From positions 1-33,188 of the forward strand of contig CANIHR010000019.1 of assembly GCA_947467185.1 (NCBI GenBank): DNA of 33,188 nt, in the 5' to 3' direction. This document shows, piece by piece, positions 1,994-31,535 of this stretch (the stretch's first letter is position 1; each line of letters starts with the position of its first letter). The DNA is from Bryobacterales bacterium (GTDB taxonomy: Bacteria > Acidobacteriota > Terriglobia > Bryobacterales > Bryobacteraceae). The position numbers were made by a program, and so were the translations under genes. Under the pieces are notes generated by a model. The model did no database searches and was not told the DNA's origin. It was given only the letters and a program-made list of their open reading frames with translations.

Positions 1994-2734
1994 ATGTCTC
2001 GAAAACTCCTACTCGCATCCCTGCTGCTTTGCAGCGGTCTTCAGGCGCAGGTCGCCATTGTTAACGCCGCCAGCTTCGCCACCAATCAGGGCGTCGCGGC
2101 CGGCTCCTGGGCTGCCGCCTTCGGCACCTTCAGCGGTATCGCCACCACAACCGCGACGACGCTCCCCTTCCCAACCTCTCTGGCTGGGGTAAAGCTCACT
2201 ATTAACGGCGTCGCCGCCCCGCTGTTCGACGTGCGGCAGACTCAGATCACCTTCCTCGTCCCCGCTGGCGTCACCGCGGGCCTGCAACCTGTCGTTGTCA
2301 CCACACCACTTGGGGCCACCAACGGCAATGTCCGCATTGTTTCCGCTGCTCCTGGCATCTTCCCGAAGGAAGGCACGAACCCACCCAAGGGCGCCATCAT
2401 CAACCAGAGTGGTATCGAAAACTCCTCTACCCTGCCGGCGAAAAAGGGCGAAGTCATTTCGATCTATGGCACCGGCCCCGGCGCTTTCAAGGCGGCCTAC
2501 ACAGACGGTATCGCCCCCGGTGCAACCCCGCTTGTGGAAACAAGCTCTACCCCTCAGGTCTTTATTGGTGGCGTCTCCGCCGAAGTGAAGTACTCGGGCC
2601 TGAACCCCTCCTCGCCCGGCCTGTGGCAGATCAACGTGGTGGTCCCGAATCTCGCTTTCATCACCGGCAAAGTCCCGGTCAGCATCTTCATCGACGGCGT
2701 CGATTCGAACCAGGTGGCTGTGTTTGTCCAGTAG
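1994..2734 (+). CDS. Secreted single-domain TIGR03437-family protein (Solibacter C-terminal domain)
   Basis: Signal peptide MSRKLLLASLLLCSGLQA, then VNAASFA...SLAGVKLTINGVAAPLFDVRQTQITFLVPAG...APGIF...GAIINQSGIENSSTLPAKKGEVISIYGTGPG...TPQVFIGGVSAEVKYSGL...GLWQINVVVP, the TIGR03437 pattern. Confidence 0.85.
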   Translation: MSRKLLLASLLLCSGLQAQVAIVNAASFATNQGVAAGSWAAAFGTFSGIATTTATTLPFPTSLAGVKLTINGVAAPLFDVRQTQITFLVPAGVTAGLQPVVVTTPLGATNGNVRIVSAAPGIFPKEGTNPPKGAIINQSGIENSSTLPAKKGEVISIYGTGPGAFKAAYTDGIAPGATPLVETSSTPQVFIGGVSAEVKYSGLNPSSPGLWQINVVVPNLAFITGKVPVSIFIDGVDSNQVAVFVQ

Positions 2735-5480
2735 TCTCAAAACTCTCGCAATACTGTTGGTCGGTACTTTCTCTCTTCTCGCACAAACCGGAAAGGGGAC
2801 TGTCTCCGGAACGGTATTTGACAGCCGCTCGGGGCGCGGGGTGGTCGGGGCCTCTATCGCCATCAACGGCCAGTCCGATGGACGCACCCTGACCGATGCG
2901 CAGGGCAAGTATGTGATTACTCTTTCGCCCGGAACTTACACACTGGACTTCTCAGCGAATAAGTACGCGAAAGTCCAGCTAACCGGTGTGGAAGTCAAAA
3001 GTAACGAGAACGCCGACGCAAGCACCGTCATGTCCGATCTCTCCCAAACCAACACCAGTGTTGACGTTGTGGAGAAGATCGGCGCCCTGGAAGCCACGGC
3101 AGAAGCCATGCTGACAGAACGCAAGCTCTCCGCAGTAGTCAGCGATGCCATCAGCCGCTCTGAACTCGCGTCGGGCACCTCCGGCAATGCCGCAGCCGCT
3201 CTGGAAAAGGTAACGGGCGTGAGCGTAGTCGGCGACGGCTTCGTCTATGTCCGCGGTCTCGGCGAGCGCTACAGTTCGACCCAACTCAACGGAGCAGCGG
3301 TCCCCACCACAGAACCGGAAAAGCGAGTCGTATCCCTCGACCTGTTTCCCACCGGCATGATCGAGAACATCCAGATCAACAAGACTTACTCTCCCGATCT
3401 CCCTCTGGAATTTTCGGGTGGCCTGGTCCAGATGAAGACGGTGGACTTTCCCACGCAGAAGATCCTGAACTTCTCCGTGAAGACCGGCTACAACACGGTC
3501 ACTACCAACAATCCTTTCCTGACATCACCGTCCGCCTCCGGCGATTTCTGGGGCTACGGGGGCGGCGCACGCTCTCTACCCTCAGTCATCCCCGCCGATG
3601 CGCGACTCTTCTCCGGACAATTCACCTCCGCCGAACTCCAGACCTTTGGACGCGCTTTCTCCAACACCTGGCAGCCCACCTCCGCGAAGGCCAGGCCGCA
3701 GTTGGATTTCTCCGGCATGGGTGGCGGTACGTTTGGCCGCTTCGGCATCGTCGGCAGCGTGAGCTTCTCCAACAAGCCCCAACAGCAGAGTGAAGTGCAG
3801 CGCTTCATCCGCCAGGGAGCGGGTTCCCCCCTCATCTTCACCGAATACGGGAACTACAAGGAGTACACAGAAACCGCCCGCCTCGGCGCGGTCTTCAATG
3901 TGGCAGTTCGCCTCACTCCTTCCAACAAGCTCATCTTCCGTAACACCTATACGCACGACGCCGACAAAGCCTCCCGTCAGTTCTCGGGCTACGATGGCGG
4001 CGTTGGTGGTGACCTCGCCGCCGAACGACTCCACTATGTGGAACGCGGTATGACCTCTTCCTCCGTGGAAGGCGAACACTCCGTCGCGAAGTGGAAGAAC
4101 AGCCTGTTCCGCTGGCAGTTCACCTACTCCACCTCCAACAGAAATGAACCGGACCTGCGCGAAGTCATCCGCAACCTGCTCCCCGATGGTCGCTACATCT
4201 TCGCCGCCTCCGGCAGTTCCGGGCTCCGGTTCTTCTCCGACCTGCACGACAAAATCTACGAACCGCAGGGCGACTACAGCGTGCCATTCATGAAGGGCAA
4301 TATCAGCGGCCTGTTCAAAATGGGCTTCCGCGGCACCATACGACGCCGCGATTTCCAGGCACGACGCTTCCTGTACGCTCCGATTCAGCGCTCCACGCTG
4401 GACCTCTTCCTGCCCAGCAACCAGCTCTTCTCCGAAGCCAACGTCCGGCCGAATGGCTTCCAGATCATTGAGTTCACACGCGCCACCGACGCCTACAACG
4501 CCGACATGAACATCATGGCCGGATACGCCATGGTGGATCTCACACTGGGTCCGAAGTGGCGACTCGAAGGTGGCGTCCGCATCGAGAATTCCGACCAGAA
4601 AGTCATCACCTACGATAACCGGATTCCCAACGCCAAACCCATCACGGCAGGTCTGAACAATACCGATCCAGGCCCGGCAGTCAACCTGATCTACTCGGCC
4701 ACCGCGAAGCAGAATATCCGCTTCTCCTTCAGTGAGACCGTCTCGCGTCCGGACTTTCGCGAGCTGTCACCGTTCGACTTCAACAACACGCTCGGAGGCT
4801 TCGTCACAGCCGGCAACCCGGACCTGAAGCGCGCCAAAATCCAGAACTACGACGCCCGTTGGGAGTTCTTCCCCGGTGGCAACCAACTGATCGCGGCCAG
4901 TGTCTTCGCCAAGCGGTTCGACCAGCCCATCGAACAGACCATTGTGCCTTCCAACGATCTGCGGCAGACCTACGTCAACGCCAAATCCGCGCGCAACATC
5001 GGCTTCGAACTGGAGTTCCGCCGGTCGATGCGCAGCGTCACTCCAAAGCTAAAAGACTTCGGCGTTCAGTCAAACTTCACCTTCGTCGATTCCAGCATTC
5101 AGATCAAGCCGGAAGACGCGACGATCGTCACCTCGCAGACACGTCCTCTACTGGGTCAGTCAAAGTACATCGTCAACGGAATTGTGGAGTGGAAACGGCC
5201 AGGCCTCCGCTCGGACGCCCGCTTCTACGCCAACCATGTCTCCCGGCGAATTTCCGATGTCGGCACCTTCAAAGTCCCCGACATCTACCAGGAAGCCAAC
5301 ACCTTCCTCGACTTCGTTTACCAGTTCATCCCCCGCCGTGAAAAGAGCCGCTGGTCGGTACGTTTCGACGCTCAGAACCTGAGCGACAACACGTACCGCT
5401 GGACGCAGGGGCCCTTTGTGCAGCGGGAATACAAGGTTGGCCGGACGTTTTCGGTCGGTCTGAATTATTCGATTTTCTAG
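2724..5480 (+). CDS. TonB-dependent receptor with N-terminal carboxypeptidase-regulatory-like domain
   Basis: TTG start overlapping the upstream stop; signal peptide; GTVSGTVFDSRSGRGVVGASIAINGQ; plug motif VVGDGFVYVRGLGERYSSTQLNGAAVPTTEPEKRVVSLDLFP; C-terminal aromatic beta-strand FSVGLNYSIF. Confidence 0.92.
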   Translation: MSSSLKTLAILLVGTFSLLAQTGKGTVSGTVFDSRSGRGVVGASIAINGQSDGRTLTDAQGKYVITLSPGTYTLDFSANKYAKVQLTGVEVKSNENADASTVMSDLSQTNTSVDVVEKIGALEATAEAMLTERKLSAVVSDAISRSELASGTSGNAAAALEKVTGVSVVGDGFVYVRGLGERYSSTQLNGAAVPTTEPEKRVVSLDLFPTGMIENIQINKTYSPDLPLEFSGGLVQMKTVDFPTQKILNFSVKTGYNTVTTNNPFLTSPSASGDFWGYGGGARSLPSVIPADARLFSGQFTSAELQTFGRAFSNTWQPTSAKARPQLDFSGMGGGTFGRFGIVGSVSFSNKPQQQSEVQRFIRQGAGSPLIFTEYGNYKEYTETARLGAVFNVAVRLTPSNKLIFRNTYTHDADKASRQFSGYDGGVGGDLAAERLHYVERGMTSSSVEGEHSVAKWKNSLFRWQFTYSTSNRNEPDLREVIRNLLPDGRYIFAASGSSGLRFFSDLHDKIYEPQGDYSVPFMKGNISGLFKMGFRGTIRRRDFQARRFLYAPIQRSTLDLFLPSNQLFSEANVRPNGFQIIEFTRATDAYNADMNIMAGYAMVDLTLGPKWRLEGGVRIENSDQKVITYDNRIPNAKPITAGLNNTDPGPAVNLIYSATAKQNIRFSFSETVSRPDFRELSPFDFNNTLGGFVTAGNPDLKRAKIQNYDARWEFFPGGNQLIAASVFAKRFDQPIEQTIVPSNDLRQTYVNAKSARNIGFELEFRRSMRSVTPKLKDFGVQSNFTFVDSSIQIKPEDATIVTSQTRPLLGQSKYIVNGIVEWKRPGLRSDARFYANHVSRRISDVGTFKVPDIYQEANTFLDFVYQFIPRREKSRWSVRFDAQNLSDNTYRWTQGPFVQREYKVGRTFSVGLNYSIF

Positions 5481-5511
5481 GTTTTCAGCAATCAATCCAA
5501 AAGGAGAAATT

Positions 5512-7338
5512 ATGCGAATCGTATCGCTTACACTGCTCGGGCTCGCCGCCATGCTGGCACCCGCCCAGGAACTTATCCCCGTCGACAACGGCCCGGTCAC
5601 AAAACCGGCACCCCAGGCCGTCGTCTATAACGGTCCCCGCGCAAAGGTCTCCATGTATTCATGGAGCAACAAGTACGTCTACCGTGCCGGTGACGCGCTG
5701 ACCCTTAAGTGGACCGTGAAGACCAACGGCGACCTCTACCCCTACACGACCTTCGTCTACCGCCAGAACAATCAGACCGGCGTGAAGACCTGGCTCCCCG
5801 GCAACACGGAGACCCCGACCGATATCAACGGCAACACGCCGGATGCCCTGCAGCCCGCCGTTCTCACTGATGCCAGCAAAGCCATCCTGATCGGTGCCGG
5901 CGGCAAGTTCCCCGCCATCACGCTGCCCACCGAATACGGCATGCACACCATCGCCGTTCAGCTGCGCGACTATACCGGCACTCGCGTTCTGAAGACGTCC
6001 TACATGAAGATCGGCGTCGTGAAGAATGCCACCACCATCACCGGTGACATCACGGCCGACCGGACGCTCACCAACGACACCCAGTGGGACCTCAAGGGCA
6101 TCGTCTACGTAAAGAACGGTGCGACGCTCACCGTGGAACCCGGCACTTTCGTGTTCGGCCAGCCCGGCACCGCGCCTCCCTCCGCCCTGATCATCACCCA
6201 GACTGGCAAGATCATTGCGAACGGCACGAAGTCCCGTCCCATCGTCATGACCAGCTCTCAGGCCTTTGGCTCCCGCATCCGCGGCGACTGGGGTGGCCTC
6301 GTAATGCTCGGCAAGGCTCCCATCAATGTTGGCGGCAACATCGCGGGCGGCGCAACCTGCGGTACCGGTGGCTGCAAGAACGAACCCGGCACGTTCTACA
6401 TTGAAGGTCTCGTTGGCAACCCGGACAGCCTTTACGGTGGCACCGATGCCAACCACAACTGTGGTTCGCTCAAGTACGTCCGCGTGGAATACGCCGGCAC
6501 CATCCTCTCCCCCAACAACGAACTCAACTCCTTCACCTGGGGTGGTTGCGGCAAGCAGACAGTTGCCGAGCACCTGCAGGCCATCGAAGGCAAGGATGAC
6601 TGCTTCGAATGGTTTGGTGGTAACAACGATGCCAGATGGCTGGTTGGCGGCAACTGCGCCGACGACTACACCGATTACCAGCTCGGCTACACCGGCCGCG
6701 TCCAGTATGGTCTGATGTACCAGTCCCCCGATTCCAACGGCAATCGTGGCGTGGAAGGCGACAACAGCGAATACGACAATGCCGCCGTCCCGTTCTCGAA
6801 CCCCACTTTCTACAACATCACCTACTTCGGCAGCGGCGTCCCCGGCTTCGATGAAGCGGCTGCTCCCGGCTTGTTCGTCCGGCGAGGAAGTCGAGGGTCG
6901 TTTAACAATCTGGCCTTCATGAATTACTACAGCCCCTGCATCAGCGTCTCGGACGCCAACACCCAGGCGCAGGCAGATCTCGGCAACCTGACCATGAACG
7001 GCATTCTCTGCTACAACAACAACATCGGTGGCAAGGGCACCAACACCCTAACGGGCCAGATCCTGACCGCTTACGACCAGGCCTACGCCCAGGGCCAGAA
7101 GGGCAACGGCGCCGGCAAGAACTTCCTCTTCTCCGATCCGTTCATCACCCGCCCCTTCGAATACAGCGATCCGGATTTCATGGGTCTGTTCGGCAGCCCG
7201 CTCTTCCGGGCCGGCTGGATTTCGCCTCCCGATGATGGCTTCTTCGACCAGACGGCGAAGTTCATCGGCGGCATCGGTGATGAGGACTGGACCGAAGAAT
7301 GGACCAGCTTCCTGATCGAAAATGACATAAAGCCGTAA
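5512..7338 (+). CDS. Secreted beta-helix-like protein of uncharacterised family commonly seen beside TonB-dependent receptors
   Basis: SD AAGGAGA upstream; signal peptide MRIVSLTLLGLAAMLAPAQ; ITGDITADRTLTNDTQWDLKGIVYVKNGATLTVEPGTFVFGQPG...ANGTKSRPIVMTSSQAFGSRIRGDWGGLVMLGKAPIN...LKYVRVEYAG. Confidence 0.75.
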   Translation: MRIVSLTLLGLAAMLAPAQELIPVDNGPVTKPAPQAVVYNGPRAKVSMYSWSNKYVYRAGDALTLKWTVKTNGDLYPYTTFVYRQNNQTGVKTWLPGNTETPTDINGNTPDALQPAVLTDASKAILIGAGGKFPAITLPTEYGMHTIAVQLRDYTGTRVLKTSYMKIGVVKNATTITGDITADRTLTNDTQWDLKGIVYVKNGATLTVEPGTFVFGQPGTAPPSALIITQTGKIIANGTKSRPIVMTSSQAFGSRIRGDWGGLVMLGKAPINVGGNIAGGATCGTGGCKNEPGTFYIEGLVGNPDSLYGGTDANHNCGSLKYVRVEYAGTILSPNNELNSFTWGGCGKQTVAEHLQAIEGKDDCFEWFGGNNDARWLVGGNCADDYTDYQLGYTGRVQYGLMYQSPDSNGNRGVEGDNSEYDNAAVPFSNPTFYNITYFGSGVPGFDEAAAPGLFVRRGSRGSFNNLAFMNYYSPCISVSDANTQAQADLGNLTMNGILCYNNNIGGKGTNTLTGQILTAYDQAYAQGQKGNGAGKNFLFSDPFITRPFEYSDPDFMGLFGSPLFRAGWISPPDDGFFDQTAKFIGGIGDEDWTEEWTSFLIENDIKP

Positions 7339-7366: not shown

Positions 7367-7399
7367 GGCCGGATCCAGAGATGGATCCGGCCTTTTTTT
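7367..7399 (+). terminator. Rho-independent terminator after the beta-helix gene
   Basis: Perfect 11-bp stem GGCCGGATCCA / TGGATCCGGCC with GAGA loop followed by T7. Confidence 0.95.
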
Positions 7400-7436: not shown

Positions 7437-7480
7437 AGTGACGCAATCTTAACAGTGGAGTAACTGATCTGTAACCGTTT
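7437..7480 (+). promoter_or_regulatory. Four 11-bp-phased direct repeats (Pho-box-like operator candidate) upstream of TBDR
   Basis: AGTGACGCAAT|CTTAACAGTGG|AGTAACTGATC|TGTAACCGTTT; TGAC/TAAC/TAAC/TAAC begin at 7439, 7450, 7461, 7472, exactly 11 bp apart. Confidence 0.55.
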
Positions 7481-7494
7481 TCCCCGTAGCCTGA

Positions 7495-7513
7495 AGGTGT
7501 CAACATGACACCT
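7495..7513 (+). promoter_or_regulatory. Perfect inverted repeat spanning the start codon of the TBDR
   Basis: AGGTGTCA-ACA-TGACACCT (7495-7502 / 7506-7513); start codon is 7505-7507. Confidence 0.55.
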
Positions 7514-10500
7514 AAAAAACTAATTGTTTGTTTCGCCCTGTTTGCTGGCCTTGCTGCCGCGCAGGTGGATCAGGCCCGCCTTACCGGGACCGTGTCCGAC
7601 GCTTCGGGAGGCGTGCTCCCCAGCGTCACCGTCAAAATCACGAACCAGAAAACCGGCGCAGCTCGTGAGGCTGTTACCAATGCCTCCGGCATCTTCTTCG
7701 CCCCCGGCCTTTCCGCTTCCAACTACACCATTACCGCCTCCGCAGCAGGTCTGGAACCCGCTGAATACAAAGACGTCAACCTCGCCGTGGGTCAGGAACG
7801 AACCCTCAACATCACCCTGCAGGCCGCCGGCGTCACCACCTCGGTGACGGTTTCGGGCGGCGATCTCGCCGTTGTCGAAACCAGTTCCGCCACCGTCGGT
7901 GCCAATGTCAACGCCCGCGAAGTGGCCGAAATGCCCATCAACGGCCGTCAGATCTCTCAGCTTTACCTCCTCACCCCCGGTGCCCAGTCTTCCGGCGGTG
8001 GCTCTTTCGACAACATCCGCTTCAGCGGCCGGTCGAACCAGCAGAACGCCGTGAAGTTCGACGGCGTCGAAGGTTCCGCCATCGTCGATGCTTCGCCTGG
8101 TAACCTGAACGGCCAGACGTCTTCGGCCTTCCGTCTCCAGGCCAGCCTCGAGACAGTGCAGGAATTCCGCGTGGAATCCAGCAATTACCCCGCTGAGTAC
8201 GGCACCGGAAGCGGCGGCCAGATCAGCATCATCACCAAGTCCGGCGGCAACGAATACCACGGCAGCGTCTTCGAGTACCTCCGCAACGACGCGCTCGACG
8301 CCCGCAACTACTTCGACGGCCTCAACAAGAACCCCCTCCGTCTGAACCAGTTTGGTGGCTCCGTCGGCGGCGCCATCATTAAGGACAAGCTCTTCTTCTT
8401 CGGCCACTATGAAGGTCTCCGGCAGCACGCCGGAATCGCCCTCGTCGGTCAGACGCCCTCCGCCGCCGTTCGCAACCTGCCCGTCTGCGCCACCGGCGTC
8501 GTCGGTCGCTGCGTCGATTCCCAGATCAAGCCCCTCTTCGGTGCCTTCCCCCTGGGCAACCGCGGTGCCACCTCCAACCCTGATTTCGACATCGCGCAGC
8601 TCGATGGCCGCTCCATCGTCAACGAAAACTCCGAGAGCATCCGACTCGACTACCACCAGAACGACAAGAATACCTTTTACGTTCGCTGGTTCCGCGACGA
8701 CGGCACCTCCACTTCGCCCTTCGACGTTTCCGGCAGCGCCTTCCAGCAGAAGGCCCTCAGCCAGAATGGTGTCGCAAGCTGGCAGCGTATCCTTTCCCCC
8801 TCCATCGTGAACGAAGCCAAGTTCGGCTACAACGGCCCCAAGACCCGCACCAACGGCATCGCGCCGGTGGTTCCCGGCCTGGATCTTTCCGCCACCACGC
8901 TGAACATCACGGGTGCCAACGTCCTCGTCGGCATCGGTGGCCAGGGTGCCAGCGCCGGTATCTCCATCCCGTCGGGCCTGGTTCGCGCCAGCTCCGCCAC
9001 CAACGGCCGCGCTCAGCCTTACACGAACTACTCGCTCAGCTACATGGACACTCTGAGCTGGATCAAGGGCAACCACAACTTCAAGTTCGGTGGTGAGTTC
9101 CGCCAGGTTCGGATGTACACCGACCGCCTCGGCGGCGTGACCTACGCGTTCGGCAACCTCGATTCCTTCCTTGCCAACACGCCCTCCATCAGTGTTCTGG
9201 GCGACCTGAGTTCCCCCAGCCCGTTCAACGGCGGCGCCACGGGCAACCGCCTCGGCAAGACCGAAATGTTCAGCGCCTACGCGCAGGACGAATACAAGCT
9301 CACCCCCGAGCTGACCCTGAGCTACGGTCTGCGCTATGAGTACTACACGCCGATGCGCGAAGACCGCAATCTGGTGGTGCTCTACAACGTCTCAACGGGT
9401 GGCCTCGACGCCCCCGGCAGCCGCCCCTTCTACCAGACTTCGAAGACAGCCTTTGGCCCCCGCCTCGGCATCAGCTACGCGCCGAAAGCGCTCCATGGCA
9501 AGACCGTCATCCGCATCGGTGGTGGTTACTACTACGGGCCCGGTCAGGGCGAAGACCTCATCCAGCCGATCGAAAGCGACCGTGTCAGCACAACCGCCAC
9601 GGGCCGTTACCCGATCGACCCGCTGCCGATCATCAAGAACTTCAACATCAATACTGCAACCGGCATCGGTGTCCGCGCTTACGCCTCGGGCTACAAGGTT
9701 CCGGAGAAGATCCTCTCTTACACGTTCTCCGTGCAGCAGACCCTGCCCTTCAACGCGGTGCTCCAGGTCGCTTACGTCGGCAGCCAGGGCCGCAACCTCT
9801 TCCTCCGCTCCATCGCGAATAAGGTCACCGGCTTCACCATGAATCCGACGACCGGTGTGGCGTCAGCGGTTCGCGAGTTCGGTTCCCGCTTCGGCGAAAT
9901 CGACTACAAGACCACGGGCGGCAACGACAACTACAACTCGATGCAGACCACCCTCAACCGTCGCTTCAGCAAGGGTCTGACGCTCGGCGCACAGTGGACC
10001 TGGGCGCACTCCATCGGTAACACCGGTGGTTCCAACGAAGCCAACACGGCAACCAATCCGTTCAACTTCGCGGCCGACCATGGCAACAATGCCTTCGACG
10101 TTCGCCACTCGGCCAACATGACCGCTCTGTATGAACTGCCCTTCGGTAAAGGTCGCCAGTTCGCCTCGAACCTCAACAAAGCGGCCGATGCGATCATCGG
10201 TGGCTGGCAACTGGGCGGTGTTCTCAACGCCCGCACCGGCCTGCCGATCGACATCCGCATCACCCGCCCCGATATCGTTTATCGCGACACCCGCTCCAAC
10301 GCGATCGTGAACTCGCCCATCGTGGTGAACGGAACGCCGGCTACGGTTCCTGTGATCAACGTGCCCGGCGGCGGCAACTCCCGCGACGTCCGGTTCCCGA
10401 ATGTGGTGGCAGGTGTCAATCCCTTCCTCGAAAACGCTACCGACAAGCGCTTCATCCTGAACCCGGCCGCCTTCGCAATCCCGGCTCCTGGCACCTTCGG

Positions 10501-10819
10501 GAACCTCGGTCGCGGCGCACTGCACGGCCCCGGCCTCAGCCAGTTCGATCTCACCATGCACAAGAAGTTCAACATCACCGAGCGGATCAACACGGAACTC
10601 CGTATCGAGGTGTACAACATCTTCAACAAAGCAAACTTCGCAAACCCGGCGGTCCGCCTGAACAACGTTCTCGGAACCTCCGGCAACACATTGCAGCCCG
10701 GCCAGCCTTACACCGCCACCACCGGTGGTTCGTTCGGCTCGGTGCTCTCCACTGTGGAAAGCGCCGTCGGTCTCGGTGCCCAGCGTCAGGTCCAGATGTC
10801 ACTTCGTGTGAACTTCTAA
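7505..10819 (+). CDS. TonB-dependent receptor, Oar-like with N-terminal carboxypeptidase-regulatory-like domain
   Basis: QARLTGTVSDASGGVLPSVTVKITNQKTGAAREAVTNASGIFFAPGL; plug-like region NQQNAVKFDGVE...EFRVESSNYPAEYGTGSGGQISIITKSGGNEYHGSVFEYLRNDALDARNYFD; terminal QVQMSLRVNF. Confidence 0.93.
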   Translation: MTPKKLIVCFALFAGLAAAQVDQARLTGTVSDASGGVLPSVTVKITNQKTGAAREAVTNASGIFFAPGLSASNYTITASAAGLEPAEYKDVNLAVGQERTLNITLQAAGVTTSVTVSGGDLAVVETSSATVGANVNAREVAEMPINGRQISQLYLLTPGAQSSGGGSFDNIRFSGRSNQQNAVKFDGVEGSAIVDASPGNLNGQTSSAFRLQASLETVQEFRVESSNYPAEYGTGSGGQISIITKSGGNEYHGSVFEYLRNDALDARNYFDGLNKNPLRLNQFGGSVGGAIIKDKLFFFGHYEGLRQHAGIALVGQTPSAAVRNLPVCATGVVGRCVDSQIKPLFGAFPLGNRGATSNPDFDIAQLDGRSIVNENSESIRLDYHQNDKNTFYVRWFRDDGTSTSPFDVSGSAFQQKALSQNGVASWQRILSPSIVNEAKFGYNGPKTRTNGIAPVVPGLDLSATTLNITGANVLVGIGGQGASAGISIPSGLVRASSATNGRAQPYTNYSLSYMDTLSWIKGNHNFKFGGEFRQVRMYTDRLGGVTYAFGNLDSFLANTPSISVLGDLSSPSPFNGGATGNRLGKTEMFSAYAQDEYKLTPELTLSYGLRYEYYTPMREDRNLVVLYNVSTGGLDAPGSRPFYQTSKTAFGPRLGISYAPKALHGKTVIRIGGGYYYGPGQGEDLIQPIESDRVSTTATGRYPIDPLPIIKNFNINTATGIGVRAYASGYKVPEKILSYTFSVQQTLPFNAVLQVAYVGSQGRNLFLRSIANKVTGFTMNPTTGVASAVREFGSRFGEIDYKTTGGNDNYNSMQTTLNRRFSKGLTLGAQWTWAHSIGNTGGSNEANTATNPFNFAADHGNNAFDVRHSANMTALYELPFGKGRQFASNLNKAADAIIGGWQLGGVLNARTGLPIDIRITRPDIVYRDTRSNAIVNSPIVVNGTPATVPVINVPGGGNSRDVRFPNVVAGVNPFLENATDKRFILNPAAFAIPAPGTFGNLGRGALHGPGLSQFDLTMHKKFNITERINTELRIEVYNIFNKANFANPAVRLNNVLGTSGNTLQPGQPYTATTGGSFGSVLSTVESAVGLGAQRQVQMSLRVNF

Positions 10820-12427: not shown

Positions 12428-15118
12428 ATGAGCACTAACCGCCGGGCAGCACTGCGATTCCTGATCCTGCTCTCCCCTGCCCTCCTGGGTGCCGACGCCG
12501 GCACCGATTTCTTCGAAGCCCGCATCCGCCCCGTGCTCGCCGAACGCTGCTACGGTTGCCACAGTTCCAAACTCCGCGAACCCAAAGCCGACCTCCGCCT
12601 GGACGGCCCCGCGCCCACCGTCATCACCCCCGGCAAGCCCGACGAAAGCAAGCTCCTCAAAGCGATCTCGTACACCGATTTCCGCCTCCGCATGCCCCCC
12701 ACCGGCAAGCTGCCAGACTCGGTCATCGCCGATTTCACCGAGTGGGTCAAGATGGGTGCCCCCGATCCCCGAACCGCTGTCACCGTGGAAGCCCGCGCCC
12801 TGCCCCCTGGTCTCGACCTCGACCGCGGACGCCGTTTCTGGGCCTTTCAGCCCGTGGTCGCCACCCCACCCCCTGCCGTCAAAAACAAACTCTGGTCCAA
12901 AACCGACTCCGACCGCTTCCTCCTCGCCGCCCTCGAAGCCAAAGGCCTGAAGCCCGCCCCCGAAGCCGACAAACGCTCCTGGCTCCGCCGCGTCACCTTC
13001 GATCTGACGGGTCTACCGCCCACTCCCGCCGAGATGGATGCCTTCCTCGCCGCCGGCAACTACGAAGCGGTGGTTGACCGCCTCCTCGCCTCCCCGCACT
13101 ACGGCGAACGCTGGGCACGCCACTGGCTCGACCTCGTCCGCTACGCCGAAACCAACGGCCACGAATACGACAACAACAAGCTCGACGCCTGGCAATACCG
13201 CGACTACGTCATCCGCGCCTTCAATGAGGACCTCCCGTTCAACCGCTTCGTCCAGGAACACCTCGCCGGCGACCTCCTCGAAGACCAGCGCACCTCCAAA
13301 GACGGCCGCTTCCTCGAATCCCCCATCGCGACCAATTTCTACTGGTTCGGCGAAGTCCTCAACTCCGCCACAGACTCCGTAAAGTCCAAAGCCGACAACG
13401 TCGACAACCAGGTCGATGTCATCGCCAAGAGCTTCCTCGGCCTCACCGTCGCCTGCGCCCGCTGCCACGACCACAAATTCGACCCCATTCCGACCCGCGA
13501 CTACTACGGCCTTGCCGGCATCATGCACTCCACGGGGATGCGCGAAGTCGTGATTGACTCGCCCGCCCAGGCCCGCGCGATCCACCGCGCCCACGAAGCC
13601 GCCCCCGCCACCACCCGCAACCCCGGCCGGGCGAAGATCCAACTCCGCCCCGGCGAAACTCTATGGGAAGACTTCACCGATCTCACCACCAACGCCTGGC
13701 ACCAAAGCGGTGAGGCTTTCGCCACCGGTCCCCGTGACGGCGTGATCGACTCGGCCGGACGCGGCGTCAACGAACTGGTCGGCTCCCTCACCTCAAAGAA
13801 GTTCAAAATGCCGAACCACTACGTCCACGTTCGGCTGAACGCCACAAAGGGCAACGGGAGCCTCGTCGAGCGCGAACCCATCCGCCTCACCCTCGTCGCC
13901 GACGATTACAAGAGCATCCACTACATGGGTTCCGGCAAAACGCCCGGCAAGTTCGAATGGATCTCGTACCGCATGACGCTGCCCTTCGAACGCCAGTGTT
14001 ACTTCGAACTGGTGGACCGCTCCCGCACCGGAGCCATCGCGGTGGACGCCATCGTTTTCTCCGAAGAAAAAGACCCGCCGCCCACCATCGAAGAAACTCC
14101 CGCCGAGTGGGCCGAACCCGCCCCGCAACCGCAGCTTCCCGCCTCCACCTTCGGCATGGTCGCCTGGGACGAAGCCCCCGGCAACACCAAACTCCACATT
14201 CGCGGCAGCCACCAGAACCTCGGCGAAGAAGTTCCGCGCCACTTCCTGCAGGTGATTTCGAAGGACGGCACGCACCCCGCCATTACCGGCAGCGGTCGCC
14301 TGGAACTCGCCAACTGGATGACCGGCGAAGCGGCCCCGCTGCTCGCCCGCGTCTACGTCAACCGCCTCTGGGAACACCACTTCGGCGATGGCCTCGTCCG
14401 CACCGCTGACAACTTCGGCGTGATGGGAGAACGCGCCACCAACCGCGAACTCCTCGACACCCTCTCCGCCAAATTCATCGCCGGGGGTTGGAGCACAAAA
14501 GCCCTGCAGCGCGAAATGGTCCTATCAGCGGCCTATCGAATGAGCAGCAAGGACGACCCCGTTGCCGCGAAAGCCGATCCCCGCAACGACCTGCTCCACC
14601 ACTACCCCGTGCGACGCCTCGAAGCCGAACCCATCCGAGATGCGATCCTTTCCGTCTCCGGTTCCCTCGACAAGACGCTCTACGGCCCCAGCATCGTACC
14701 GCACATCAGCGAATACCAGAACGGGCGCGGTAAGCCGAAGTCCGGCCCCCTCGACGGTGCCGGTCGCCGCAGCATCTACATCGAAGTCCGCCGCAACTTC
14801 CTGACGCCGCTCTTCCTCGCCTTCGATTACCCCCTGCCTATCTCCACCATCGGAGTCCGTAACCGCTCCACCGTTCCCTCGCAGGCCCTCATGCTGATGA
14901 ACAACGAGTTCGTGCTGCAGCAGGCCGGACGCTGGGCAGACAGCCTCTCAGGCACGCCCGAACCCGACCGTATACCCCTGATGTACCGTCAGGCGTTCGG
15001 ACGCCCCCCGCAGCCCGCAGAGCTTCAGGAAGCCAATACCTTCCTAAAGGACGGCGGCACGCTGGCAGGTCTCGCCCACGTCCTCTTCAATTCTCCGGAG
15101 TTCATTTATGTCCAGTAG
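12428..15118 (+). CDS. PSD1 and planctomycete-cytochrome-C domain protein (DUF1549/DUF1553)
   Basis: CYGCHSSKLREPKADLRLDG (CxxCH), PHYGERWARHWLDLVRYAETNGHEYD, CARCHDHKFDPIPTRDYYGLAGI, NRSTVPSQALMLMNNEFV. Confidence 0.95.
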   Translation: MSTNRRAALRFLILLSPALLGADAGTDFFEARIRPVLAERCYGCHSSKLREPKADLRLDGPAPTVITPGKPDESKLLKAISYTDFRLRMPPTGKLPDSVIADFTEWVKMGAPDPRTAVTVEARALPPGLDLDRGRRFWAFQPVVATPPPAVKNKLWSKTDSDRFLLAALEAKGLKPAPEADKRSWLRRVTFDLTGLPPTPAEMDAFLAAGNYEAVVDRLLASPHYGERWARHWLDLVRYAETNGHEYDNNKLDAWQYRDYVIRAFNEDLPFNRFVQEHLAGDLLEDQRTSKDGRFLESPIATNFYWFGEVLNSATDSVKSKADNVDNQVDVIAKSFLGLTVACARCHDHKFDPIPTRDYYGLAGIMHSTGMREVVIDSPAQARAIHRAHEAAPATTRNPGRAKIQLRPGETLWEDFTDLTTNAWHQSGEAFATGPRDGVIDSAGRGVNELVGSLTSKKFKMPNHYVHVRLNATKGNGSLVEREPIRLTLVADDYKSIHYMGSGKTPGKFEWISYRMTLPFERQCYFELVDRSRTGAIAVDAIVFSEEKDPPPTIEETPAEWAEPAPQPQLPASTFGMVAWDEAPGNTKLHIRGSHQNLGEEVPRHFLQVISKDGTHPAITGSGRLELANWMTGEAAPLLARVYVNRLWEHHFGDGLVRTADNFGVMGERATNRELLDTLSAKFIAGGWSTKALQREMVLSAAYRMSSKDDPVAAKADPRNDLLHHYPVRRLEAEPIRDAILSVSGSLDKTLYGPSIVPHISEYQNGRGKPKSGPLDGAGRRSIYIEVRRNFLTPLFLAFDYPLPISTIGVRNRSTVPSQALMLMNNEFVLQQAGRWADSLSGTPEPDRIPLMYRQAFGRPPQPAELQEANTFLKDGGTLAGLAHVLFNSPEFIYVQ

Positions 15119-16493
15119 GCGGAGTTTCCTCACCCGCGCCGCCAACGGTTTCGGCGGCCTCGCCCTCATGCAGATGCTCGCGGAAGCCGCCACGAAGAAC
15201 GGCACCCATCACCCCGCGAAAGCGAAAGCCGTCATCTTCCTCTTCATGGACGGCGGCCCGTCGCAGATGGACACTTTCGACCCCAAGCCCCGACTCCGCC
15301 TCGACCACGGCAAGAAACTCCCCTTCAAGCCACCCACCACTGTTTTCAACATCAGCGATCAGGTCTTCGGCTCGCCCTTCGACTTCAAACAGTACGGTCA
15401 AAGCGGAGCCACTGTTAGCGAACTCTTCCCCCACGTCGCCACCTGCGTGGACGACATCGCCATCATCCGTTCCATGGTGGCCGACCACTCCGAACACACC
15501 GCCGCCAACTACTTCATACACTCCGGCTCCGGCTTCCAGGGACGCCCCAGCATGGGTTCCTGGATCAATTACGGTCTCGGCTCGGAAAGCGACAACCTCC
15601 CCGGCTTCATCGTGCTGGAAAGCGGTCTCATTCCCCCCGGCGGTCTCGACTGCTTCTCCAGCGGCTTCCTTCCCGCCAGCTACCAGGGCACCGTCTTCCG
15701 CAAGGGCGAACACCCCATCGCCGACCTGACGCCGCCCGCTTCCGAAGCCGCCGCGCAGCAGAAAAAACTCGCTCTCCTCGGAAAACTGAACAAAGGCGCC
15801 GTCGCGCGCTTCGGCGAAGTCAGCGAGATCGACGCCACCATTCAGAACTACGAACTCGCCTTCCGAATGCAGTCCGCCGTCCCCGAGCTTCTCGACTTCT
15901 CAAAGGAATCGGAAGCCACCAAAGAACTCTACGGCCTGAACGACAAGATGACCGAAGAGTTCGGCCGCGAGTGCCTTCTCGCCCGGCGTCTGGTCGAAAA
16001 AGGCGTCCGCTTCGTGGAACTCCTCACCCCCGCCCGTCCCGGCCTCGACCGCTGGGACCAGCACAGCGGCCTCGCCAACGGTCACCGCATCAACGCGCAA
16101 TCTACGGACAAGCCCATTGCCGCGCTGCTCAAAGATCTTAAGCAACGGGGCATGCTCGATCAGACCCTCGTTGTCTGGGGTGGTGAATTTGGCCGTACAC
16201 CCTGCGCCCAGCTTCCCGACAACGGCAACATGACCAACGTGGGCCGCGACCACAATCCCTTCGGCTTCACTATGTGGATGGCCGGTGGCGGCACCAAACC
16301 CGGCATCGTCCACGGGGCCACCGACGACTTCGGCTACTTCGCCGTCGAAAACAAAGTCCACGTCCATGACCTGCACGCGACCATGCTGCACTTACTCGGA
16401 ATGGACCACAAGCGCCTCACCTACCGCTACAGCGGCCGGGACATGCGCCTCACCGACGTCGCCGGCAACGTGGTGACAGAGCTTCTCGCTTAG
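15108..16493 (+). CDS. DUF1501 domain-containing protein, Tat-signal
   Basis: SRRSFLTRAANGFGGLALMQML twin-arginine signal; [34 protein letters not shown]...[26 protein letters not shown]; overlaps upstream stop. Confidence 0.95.
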   Translation: MSSRRSFLTRAANGFGGLALMQMLAEAATKNGTHHPAKAKAVIFLFMDGGPSQMDTFDPKPRLRLDHGKKLPFKPPTTVFNISDQVFGSPFDFKQYGQSGATVSELFPHVATCVDDIAIIRSMVADHSEHTAANYFIHSGSGFQGRPSMGSWINYGLGSESDNLPGFIVLESGLIPPGGLDCFSSGFLPASYQGTVFRKGEHPIADLTPPASEAAAQQKKLALLGKLNKGAVARFGEVSEIDATIQNYELAFRMQSAVPELLDFSKESEATKELYGLNDKMTEEFGRECLLARRLVEKGVRFVELLTPARPGLDRWDQHSGLANGHRINAQSTDKPIAALLKDLKQRGMLDQTLVVWGGEFGRTPCAQLPDNGNMTNVGRDHNPFGFTMWMAGGGTKPGIVHGATDDFGYFAVENKVHVHDLHATMLHLLGMDHKRLTYRYSGRDMRLTDVAGNVVTELLA

Positions 16494-21089: not shown

Positions 21090-21976
21090 ATGATAGGAAT
21101 TGGCCGACGCAAAACGATCGCGTTCATCGCGCTCGGCGTCGGCCTTATTCTTTTTACGCTGCTGTTGTATTTCGGCTATCTGGTGTTCGACTGGCGCTCC
21201 GGTATCCGACTTTTTCTTGGCATCATCCTGCTGGCCGCGATCATCGCCGGCGTTGCCCTCAATACCGTCTTCCTCGTGCGCGAAATTCGCCGCGGCGAAC
21301 AGCACGATGCATTCATCAACGCCGTCACCCACGAACTGAAAACCCCTATTGCCTCCATCCGGCTCTACGCCGAAACCCTGAAGTCCCGCCAGGTGGATGA
21401 CGAAAAACGCCAGGAGTTCTACAGCATCATCCTGGCCAACACCGACCGGCTCACCACCACCATTGAACAGATCCTCCGAACCGGTCGTATCGGCTCGTCG
21501 GGCCGGCCGCCCAACCTCGCGCCACTGGACCTCACCGAACTGGTGAAGGAATCGGTTGAGCGCGCCCGCACCCTCCATAAGGTCACTTCGGAAGCCATTC
21601 AGTTCCGCCCCGGTCGACCCTTGCCCATCGTGGGCGATCTCGAAGAAATCCGCGCCGCCGTCTCCAACCTGATCGACAACGCCCTCAAGTACTCCGGCCA
21701 GGGCGCACGCGTCATGGTTTCCGCCGACGAAGTCGACAATCACCGCGCCGAAATCCGCGTCGCCGACAACGGCCCCGGCATCCCCGGCGCCGAACTCAAA
21801 CGAATTTTCAAGCGCTTCTACCGCATGCACGGCCCGCTCGCCACACGCGTTAAAGGTATGGGCCTGGGCCTGTTTATCGTACGCTCTGTCGCCCGTCGCC
21901 ACGGTGGCCGCGCCTGGGCCGAAAGCGCGGGTCCCGGCCGGGGCGCCACCTTCATCATTCAAATCCCTCTAGCCAA

Positions 21977-21980
<4 letters not shown>
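21090..21980 (+). CDS. Sensor histidine kinase (two TM helices, very short extracytoplasmic loop)
   Basis: VTHELKTPIASIRLYAETL H-box; NLIDNALKYSG N-box; VADNGPGIPG; GMGLGLFIVRSVARRHGG; ATGA overlap with RR gene. Confidence 0.94.
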
Positions 21981-22668
<688 letters not shown>

Positions 22669-22696
<28 letters not shown>

Positions 22697-31459: not shown

Positions 31460-31535
31460 TGGCGTCCCCAGAGGGATTCGAACCCTCGTTACCGCCGTGA
31501 AAGGGCGATGTCCTGGGCCTCTAGACGATGGGGAC
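31460..31535 (-). tRNA. tRNA-Glu, anticodon TTC, encoded CCA
   Basis: Minus strand GTCCCCATCGTCTAGAGGCCCAGGACATCGCCCTTTCACGGCGGTAACGAGGGTTCGAATCCCTCTGGGGACGCCA; closes into a cloverleaf, anticodon loop CTTTCAC. Confidence 0.97.

Follow-up and report, generated by a model that had tools for sequence, protein, structure and literature searches.

The window analysed here is a stretch of 33,188 nucleotides and corresponds to contig C19 in the draft genome (G000; 5.78 Mb, assembly 96% complete) of a Bryobacterales bacterium. The region of interest is a 166-bp gap between the stop codon of a gene for a 608-aa protein (7338) and the start of a gene for an Oar-like TonB-dependent receptor (7505). It contains a terminator, four repeats and the hexamer TAGCCT, arranged as follows:

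7367–7399, + strand: intrinsic terminator of the upstream gene, an 11-bp perfect stem followed by a T run
7438–7492, + strand: whole predicted Pho-type box including the -10 element, scoring 30.6 bits against a matrix derived solely from regulator promoters
7438–7442, + strand: repeat 1, GTGAC, matching TTCAC, the first repeat of that matrix; the repeat that varies most among orthologs
7449–7453, + strand: repeat 2, TTAAC, a matrix match; invariant in the four closest orthologs
7460–7464, + strand: repeat 3, GTAAC, a matrix match; conserved across the closest orthologs
7471–7475, + strand: repeat 4, GTAAC, on the -35 side of the promoter, a matrix match; invariant in the four closest orthologs
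7487–7492, + strand: putative -10 element TAGCCT, which follows the last repeat core at a distance of 11 bp
7505–10819, + strand: Oar-like TonB-dependent receptor of 1104 aa (CarboxypepD_reg and OMP_b-brl_4 domains), the putatively controlled gene

Because the upstream gene ends in an intrinsic terminator, the receptor needs a promoter of its own.

Architecture and conservation of the repeats

The initial annotation had described four TRAC words, TGAC at 7439 and TAAC at 7450, 7461 and 7472, and all four lie exactly there; five-base cores (GTGAC, TTAAC, GTAAC and GTAAC), recurring with a period of 11 bp, describe the repeats better. The hexamer TAGCCT, which had been proposed as a -10 element past the box, is likewise present, and a TANNNT sequence 9–12 bp after the last repeat is conserved in receptor orthologs and in regulator promoters. 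The -35 position holds CTGATC (7464–7469), with no recognisable -35 element. A perfect 8-bp inverted repeat, AGGTGTCA-ACA-TGACACCT, spans the receptor start codon (7495–7513); as an operator it was rejected, being only partly conserved in orthologs.

Four TRAC words at 11-bp spacing occur once in the 5.78-Mb genome. The reversed pattern has zero matches in the same genome, and the TRAC pattern has none in two 8-Mb Markov sequences with the window's dinucleotide usage and none in a single-strand scan of 8 Mb matched in composition to the intergenic region. Within the window, the box alone holds four four-base repeats spaced 11 bp apart that agree at 15 or more of 16 positions. Word and period were nevertheless chosen post hoc, and a scan of the window for periods of 9 to 13 finds five comparable sets at periods other than 11, namely 9, 12 and 13, so that the 11-bp repeat, taken alone, is only mildly unusual.

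Stronger evidence comes from the orthologs, on whose conservation of the repeats the original proposal had depended. In the four closest, 17 of the 20 core bases are invariant as against 5 of the 24 spacer bases (Fisher p = 2e-5); because the cores are conserved and the spacers free, we judge the repeats to be real rather than a post hoc selection. The G007 ortholog (92% identical) carries five repeats, the extra one upstream, repeats 2–4 and the -10 are kept in the G015 and G016 orthologs, and the G011 ortholog (58% identical) retains three repeats. An independent matrix, described below, reaches at least 9.5 bits at 13 of 17 receptor ortholog loci, some of which come from public records that may duplicate genomes in the set. 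A strong match to this matrix is absent at the orthologs G014, G018, L220 and L227, several of which have other words at 11-bp spacing.

Among the 30 PF25183 receptor loci examined (the family has 82 matches in the genome), only the window locus has a strong box. The possibility of a promoter common to TonB-dependent receptors was rejected, since the other loci examined have no strong box. The window's receptors are flanked by two DUF1501 genes and a PSCyt/PSD1 gene (445–1863 and 12428–16493); in G011, G015 and G016, too, a DUF1501 ortholog (85–97% identity) is found upstream of the box.

A motif common to regulator, phosphate and receptor promoters

When the window's own genome was searched with the pattern, the same repeats turned up before the gene of an orphan OmpR-family regulator on contig C53. 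Further matches on C1, C369 and C461 were discarded, as nothing beyond the pattern supports them. A blind search for three repeats and a -10 in 101 family genomes returned 26 matches, compared with 7 in the reversed control, and 18 of the 26 are the promoter of a single PhoB-like response regulator, the ortholog of the C53 protein. With a looser blind pattern, 19 genus genomes gave 27 matches against 2 in the control, 14 of them at the regulator and 6 at the receptor. When 30 regulator orthologs were gathered by protein similarity alone, 27 had the box no more than 130 bp from the start, compared with 0.03% of shuffles.

We trained the matrix on these regulator promoters only and excluded the window box from training. 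Its consensus reads TTCAC/TTxAC/kTAAC/GTAAC, followed by TACGCT, and its first repeat provides independent confirmation, as that repeat was not used in selection. The window box scores 30.6 bits, whereas a random null of 6 Mb of Markov sequence tops out near 14. The next best scores in the window are 4.7 at 1917 on the plus strand and, on the minus strand, 5.8 at a site that spans the box.

The best NCBIfam model for the C53-type regulator is TIGR02154 (PhoB), at 233.8 bits; as this falls below the equivalog cut-off of 296.2, we call the regulator PhoB-like only. Its DNA-binding domain aligns with that of E. coli PhoB in 1GXP and keeps the DRTVDV stretch. In G075, G097 and G106 the regulator is adjoined by a PhoR-like kinase, with PnpS, WalK and PhoR as its best families. 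The window genome has an ortholog of this kinase (58% identity) at the edge of contig C3, apart from the regulator. Boxes were also observed at genes of another kind: a secreted aspartyl-protease gene (PF13650) on C3 has a three-repeat box of 20.5 bits (~31468–31498; L062), another aspartyl-protease gene carries one in G017 and a similar gene does so in G014.

The same motif occurs at phosphate genes of relatives, as revealed by a regulon sketch assembled from pattern and family searches. In G011, a box, the receptor ortholog, phoU, a porin gene, pstS, pstC, pstA, pstB and phoU follow one another and all point the same way; pstS is preceded by a second box. Across 16 genomes, 12 have a (C)TAAAC/GTAAC/GAAAC-type box at the pstS promoter with a score of at least 4.4, a value of 5 being reached by roughly 1.5% of random windows. 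Many of these boxes have CACACT in place of TANNNT at the -10 position. Boxes precede porin genes in several pst loci, and a phosphoesterase-family gene in G012 has a weak one. The name porin is interpretive for a porin-like protein of about 560–590 aa with an N-terminal coiled coil, encoded between phoU and pstS (L163:4701–6386 and equivalents in other pst loci), which gave no significant Pfam or NCBIfam match.

Recurrence at regulator, pst and porin promoters supports the Pho-type class suggested in the initial annotation. Its expectation of further matches before pst- and phoU-type genes is borne out in relatives, at pstS, at the pst-linked porin and at the receptor upstream of phoU–pst. 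The window's own genome offers no such targets, because the pst and phoU genes have been lost there; of the pst, phoU and phoB gene set, only the regulator promoter with its box is left.

The three genes upstream of the gap form a cluster of their own, preceded by a weaker site:

1928–1970, + strand (within 1917–1972): probable second, degenerate box, TTAAC/GACAT/GAAAC followed by TAACCT; highest plus-strand site away from the main box
1994–7338, + strand: cluster encoding a Soli_cterm protein (246 aa), a TonB receptor (918 aa) and a secreted protein (608 aa), homologous to a cluster beside phoR–phoB in relatives

The repeats of the degenerate box are also present in G007 (L170:307). In G075 and G097 the homologous cluster directly follows the regulator and is equipped with boxes scoring 18.0 and 20.9 bits; identities to the G075 proteins are 39% (Soli_cterm), 54% (TonB receptor) and 47% (608-aa protein). 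G015 and G016 lack this cluster, and a DUF1501 gene is immediately next to the box. PDB and Pfam searches with the 608-aa protein gave no match, and its AlphaFold model, built from an alignment of two sequences, has a pLDDT of 29 and is uninformative.

Regulator identity and the signal behind the box

From the evidence above, we consider it highly probable that 7438–7492 is a phosphate-starvation (Pho) control region of the Oar-like TonB receptor. The sequences themselves show the geometry of the repeats, their conservation, the linkage of the genes and a motif that recurs at the promoters of regulator, pst, porin and receptor genes; binding, phosphorylation, activation, the start site, the cargo and the C3–C53 pairing we infer. 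Counting against this reading are the regulator's PhoB score below the cut-off, the missing PhoU and PstC of the window genome, the four receptor orthologs without a strong match, the CACACT variant at many pstS boxes and a second PhoB-like paralog.

That the repeats arose by chance or from a structural periodicity and serve no regulator is exceedingly improbable: a word and a period picked after the fact and the other periodic repeats of the window would favour such a reading, but it accounts poorly for conserved cores with free spacers, for uniqueness in the genome and for a score so far above the null maximum. A more substantial question is which regulator binds. Tandem repeats of 11 bp are common to OmpR-family regulators, and a different member, answering a signal other than phosphate, might occupy the box. 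One candidate is a second PhoB-like paralog (G000:C387 in the window genome), which could share the box; it is PhoB-like at least as well, with 253 bits for the G003 ortholog, and in G003 and G010 it is the neighbour of the box-linked regulator. The box was not found before this paralog, however, but precedes the C53-type regulator, which is also the one adjoined by the kinase, and its recurrence at pst and porin genes argues against a non-phosphate regulator. The other candidate is the regulator at 21977, which the initial annotation had put forward as a possible partner. With only 34% identity to the box-linked regulator and best families other than PhoB, it was rejected as the likely partner; we note that it forms a histidine kinase–OmpR-family pair (21090–22696) unrelated to the box. 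Taken together, binding by another OmpR-family regulator seems improbable.

The signal itself deserves closer consideration. Among the 19 genus genomes, 15 have pstC above the cut-off, and it is absent exactly in G000, G007, G015 and G016; PhoU was not found in these four or in G017. With neither PhoU nor a PstC above the cut-off, G000 does not hold the complete pstSCAB and phoU set that characterises a canonical Pho regulon, and three close relatives agree. Judged by gene content, the usual Pst–PhoU sensing route is missing in the window genome. Since the four genomes nevertheless keep the regulator and the box, the element might be a Pho box whose regulator, in this subclade, now answers another envelope or nutrient signal. 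We regard this as rather unlikely, given that all four retain a Pit-type transporter, that the PhoR-like kinase ortholog persists in G000 (the one genome covered by the kinase search) and that Pst-independent phosphate control is possible in principle. The phosphate reading can be extended, as a tentative possibility, to a subclade in which the PhoR–PhoB-like pair lost its Pst–PhoU partner, had its regulon reshaped around TonB-dependent receptors and senses phosphorus independently of Pst.

Proposed mechanism and relation to known systems

We propose that, under phosphate limitation, the PhoR-like kinase (ortholog on G000:C3) phosphorylates the PhoB-like regulator (G000:C53). By analogy with PhoB and PhoP, two regulator dimers would line up along one face of the DNA on the four 11-bp repeats, which run head to tail. 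The dimer nearer the promoter would substitute for the missing -35 element and bring sigma-70 RNA polymerase to the -10 element TAGCCT. Transcription would start near 7499 and yield a nearly leaderless receptor mRNA with about six untranslated bases, so that GAAGG (7493–7497) would not serve as a ribosome site. A similarly tight arrangement is seen at the promoter of the regulator gene. Read from the sequence in this way, the box very probably switches on the outer-membrane receptor under phosphate shortage, and the receptor presumably takes up phosphate or an organic phosphorus compound.

For Bryobacterales, soil and freshwater Acidobacteriota, these results offer a consensus of the Pho box and outline a phosphate regulon for the first time; they also suggest a likely signal for two receptors of a large, mostly unassigned TonB receptor set. 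Genomes with a phosphate regulator but without Pst and PhoU also constitute a natural test of phosphate sensing by PhoR. A text search of the literature returned no paper joining Acidobacteria, PhoB and Pho box.

In E. coli, the PHO box replaces the -35 element and lies about 10 bp before the -10, and the PhoP boxes of Bacillus subtilis are TTAACA-type repeats. The window box resembles the PhoB box of E. coli and other proteobacteria in its 11-bp head-to-tail repeats, its replacement of the -35 and the placement of the regulator gene under its own box. The proteobacterial PHO box consists of 11-bp head-to-tail repeats, each a 7-nt CTGTCAT and a 4-nt spacer (PMC3131613), whereas the window core is TTAAC/GTAAC and comprises four repeats rather than the minimal two. 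Because other phyla have other cores (PMC9019756), CTGTCAT characterises the proteobacterial subtype and not the whole Pho-box kind. With the Streptomyces PhoP boxes, which are 11-bp direct repeats of GTTCACC (PMC9019756), and with those of B. subtilis, the window box shares 11-bp direct repeats, a core near TTCAC/TTAAC and multiple tandem units; it differs in its phylum, in its position at a TonB receptor promoter and in having a regulator that is no proven ortholog.

At the level of gene content, the phoBR locus of Flavobacterium johnsoniae, with its TBDT and FII lipoprotein, is strongly induced by phosphate depletion (PMC8115612), and its lipoproteins resemble the Caulobacter low-phosphate lipoprotein ElpS (PMC2996285). 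The G075 and G097 clusters of PhoR, PhoB, TonB receptor and large surface protein are similar to these F. johnsoniae and Caulobacter ElpS/CC0171 loci, the likeness being one of cluster make-up; when both papers were searched as text, the term Pho box did not come up. Several receptors of F. johnsoniae and Caulobacter are induced only under phosphate depletion (PMC8115612, PMC2996285), but the window's Oar-like 1104-aa receptor is of a different type. The class of element is already known; new are its lineage, a GTAAC consensus of four repeats, a receptor as target and the lack of Pst–PhoU.
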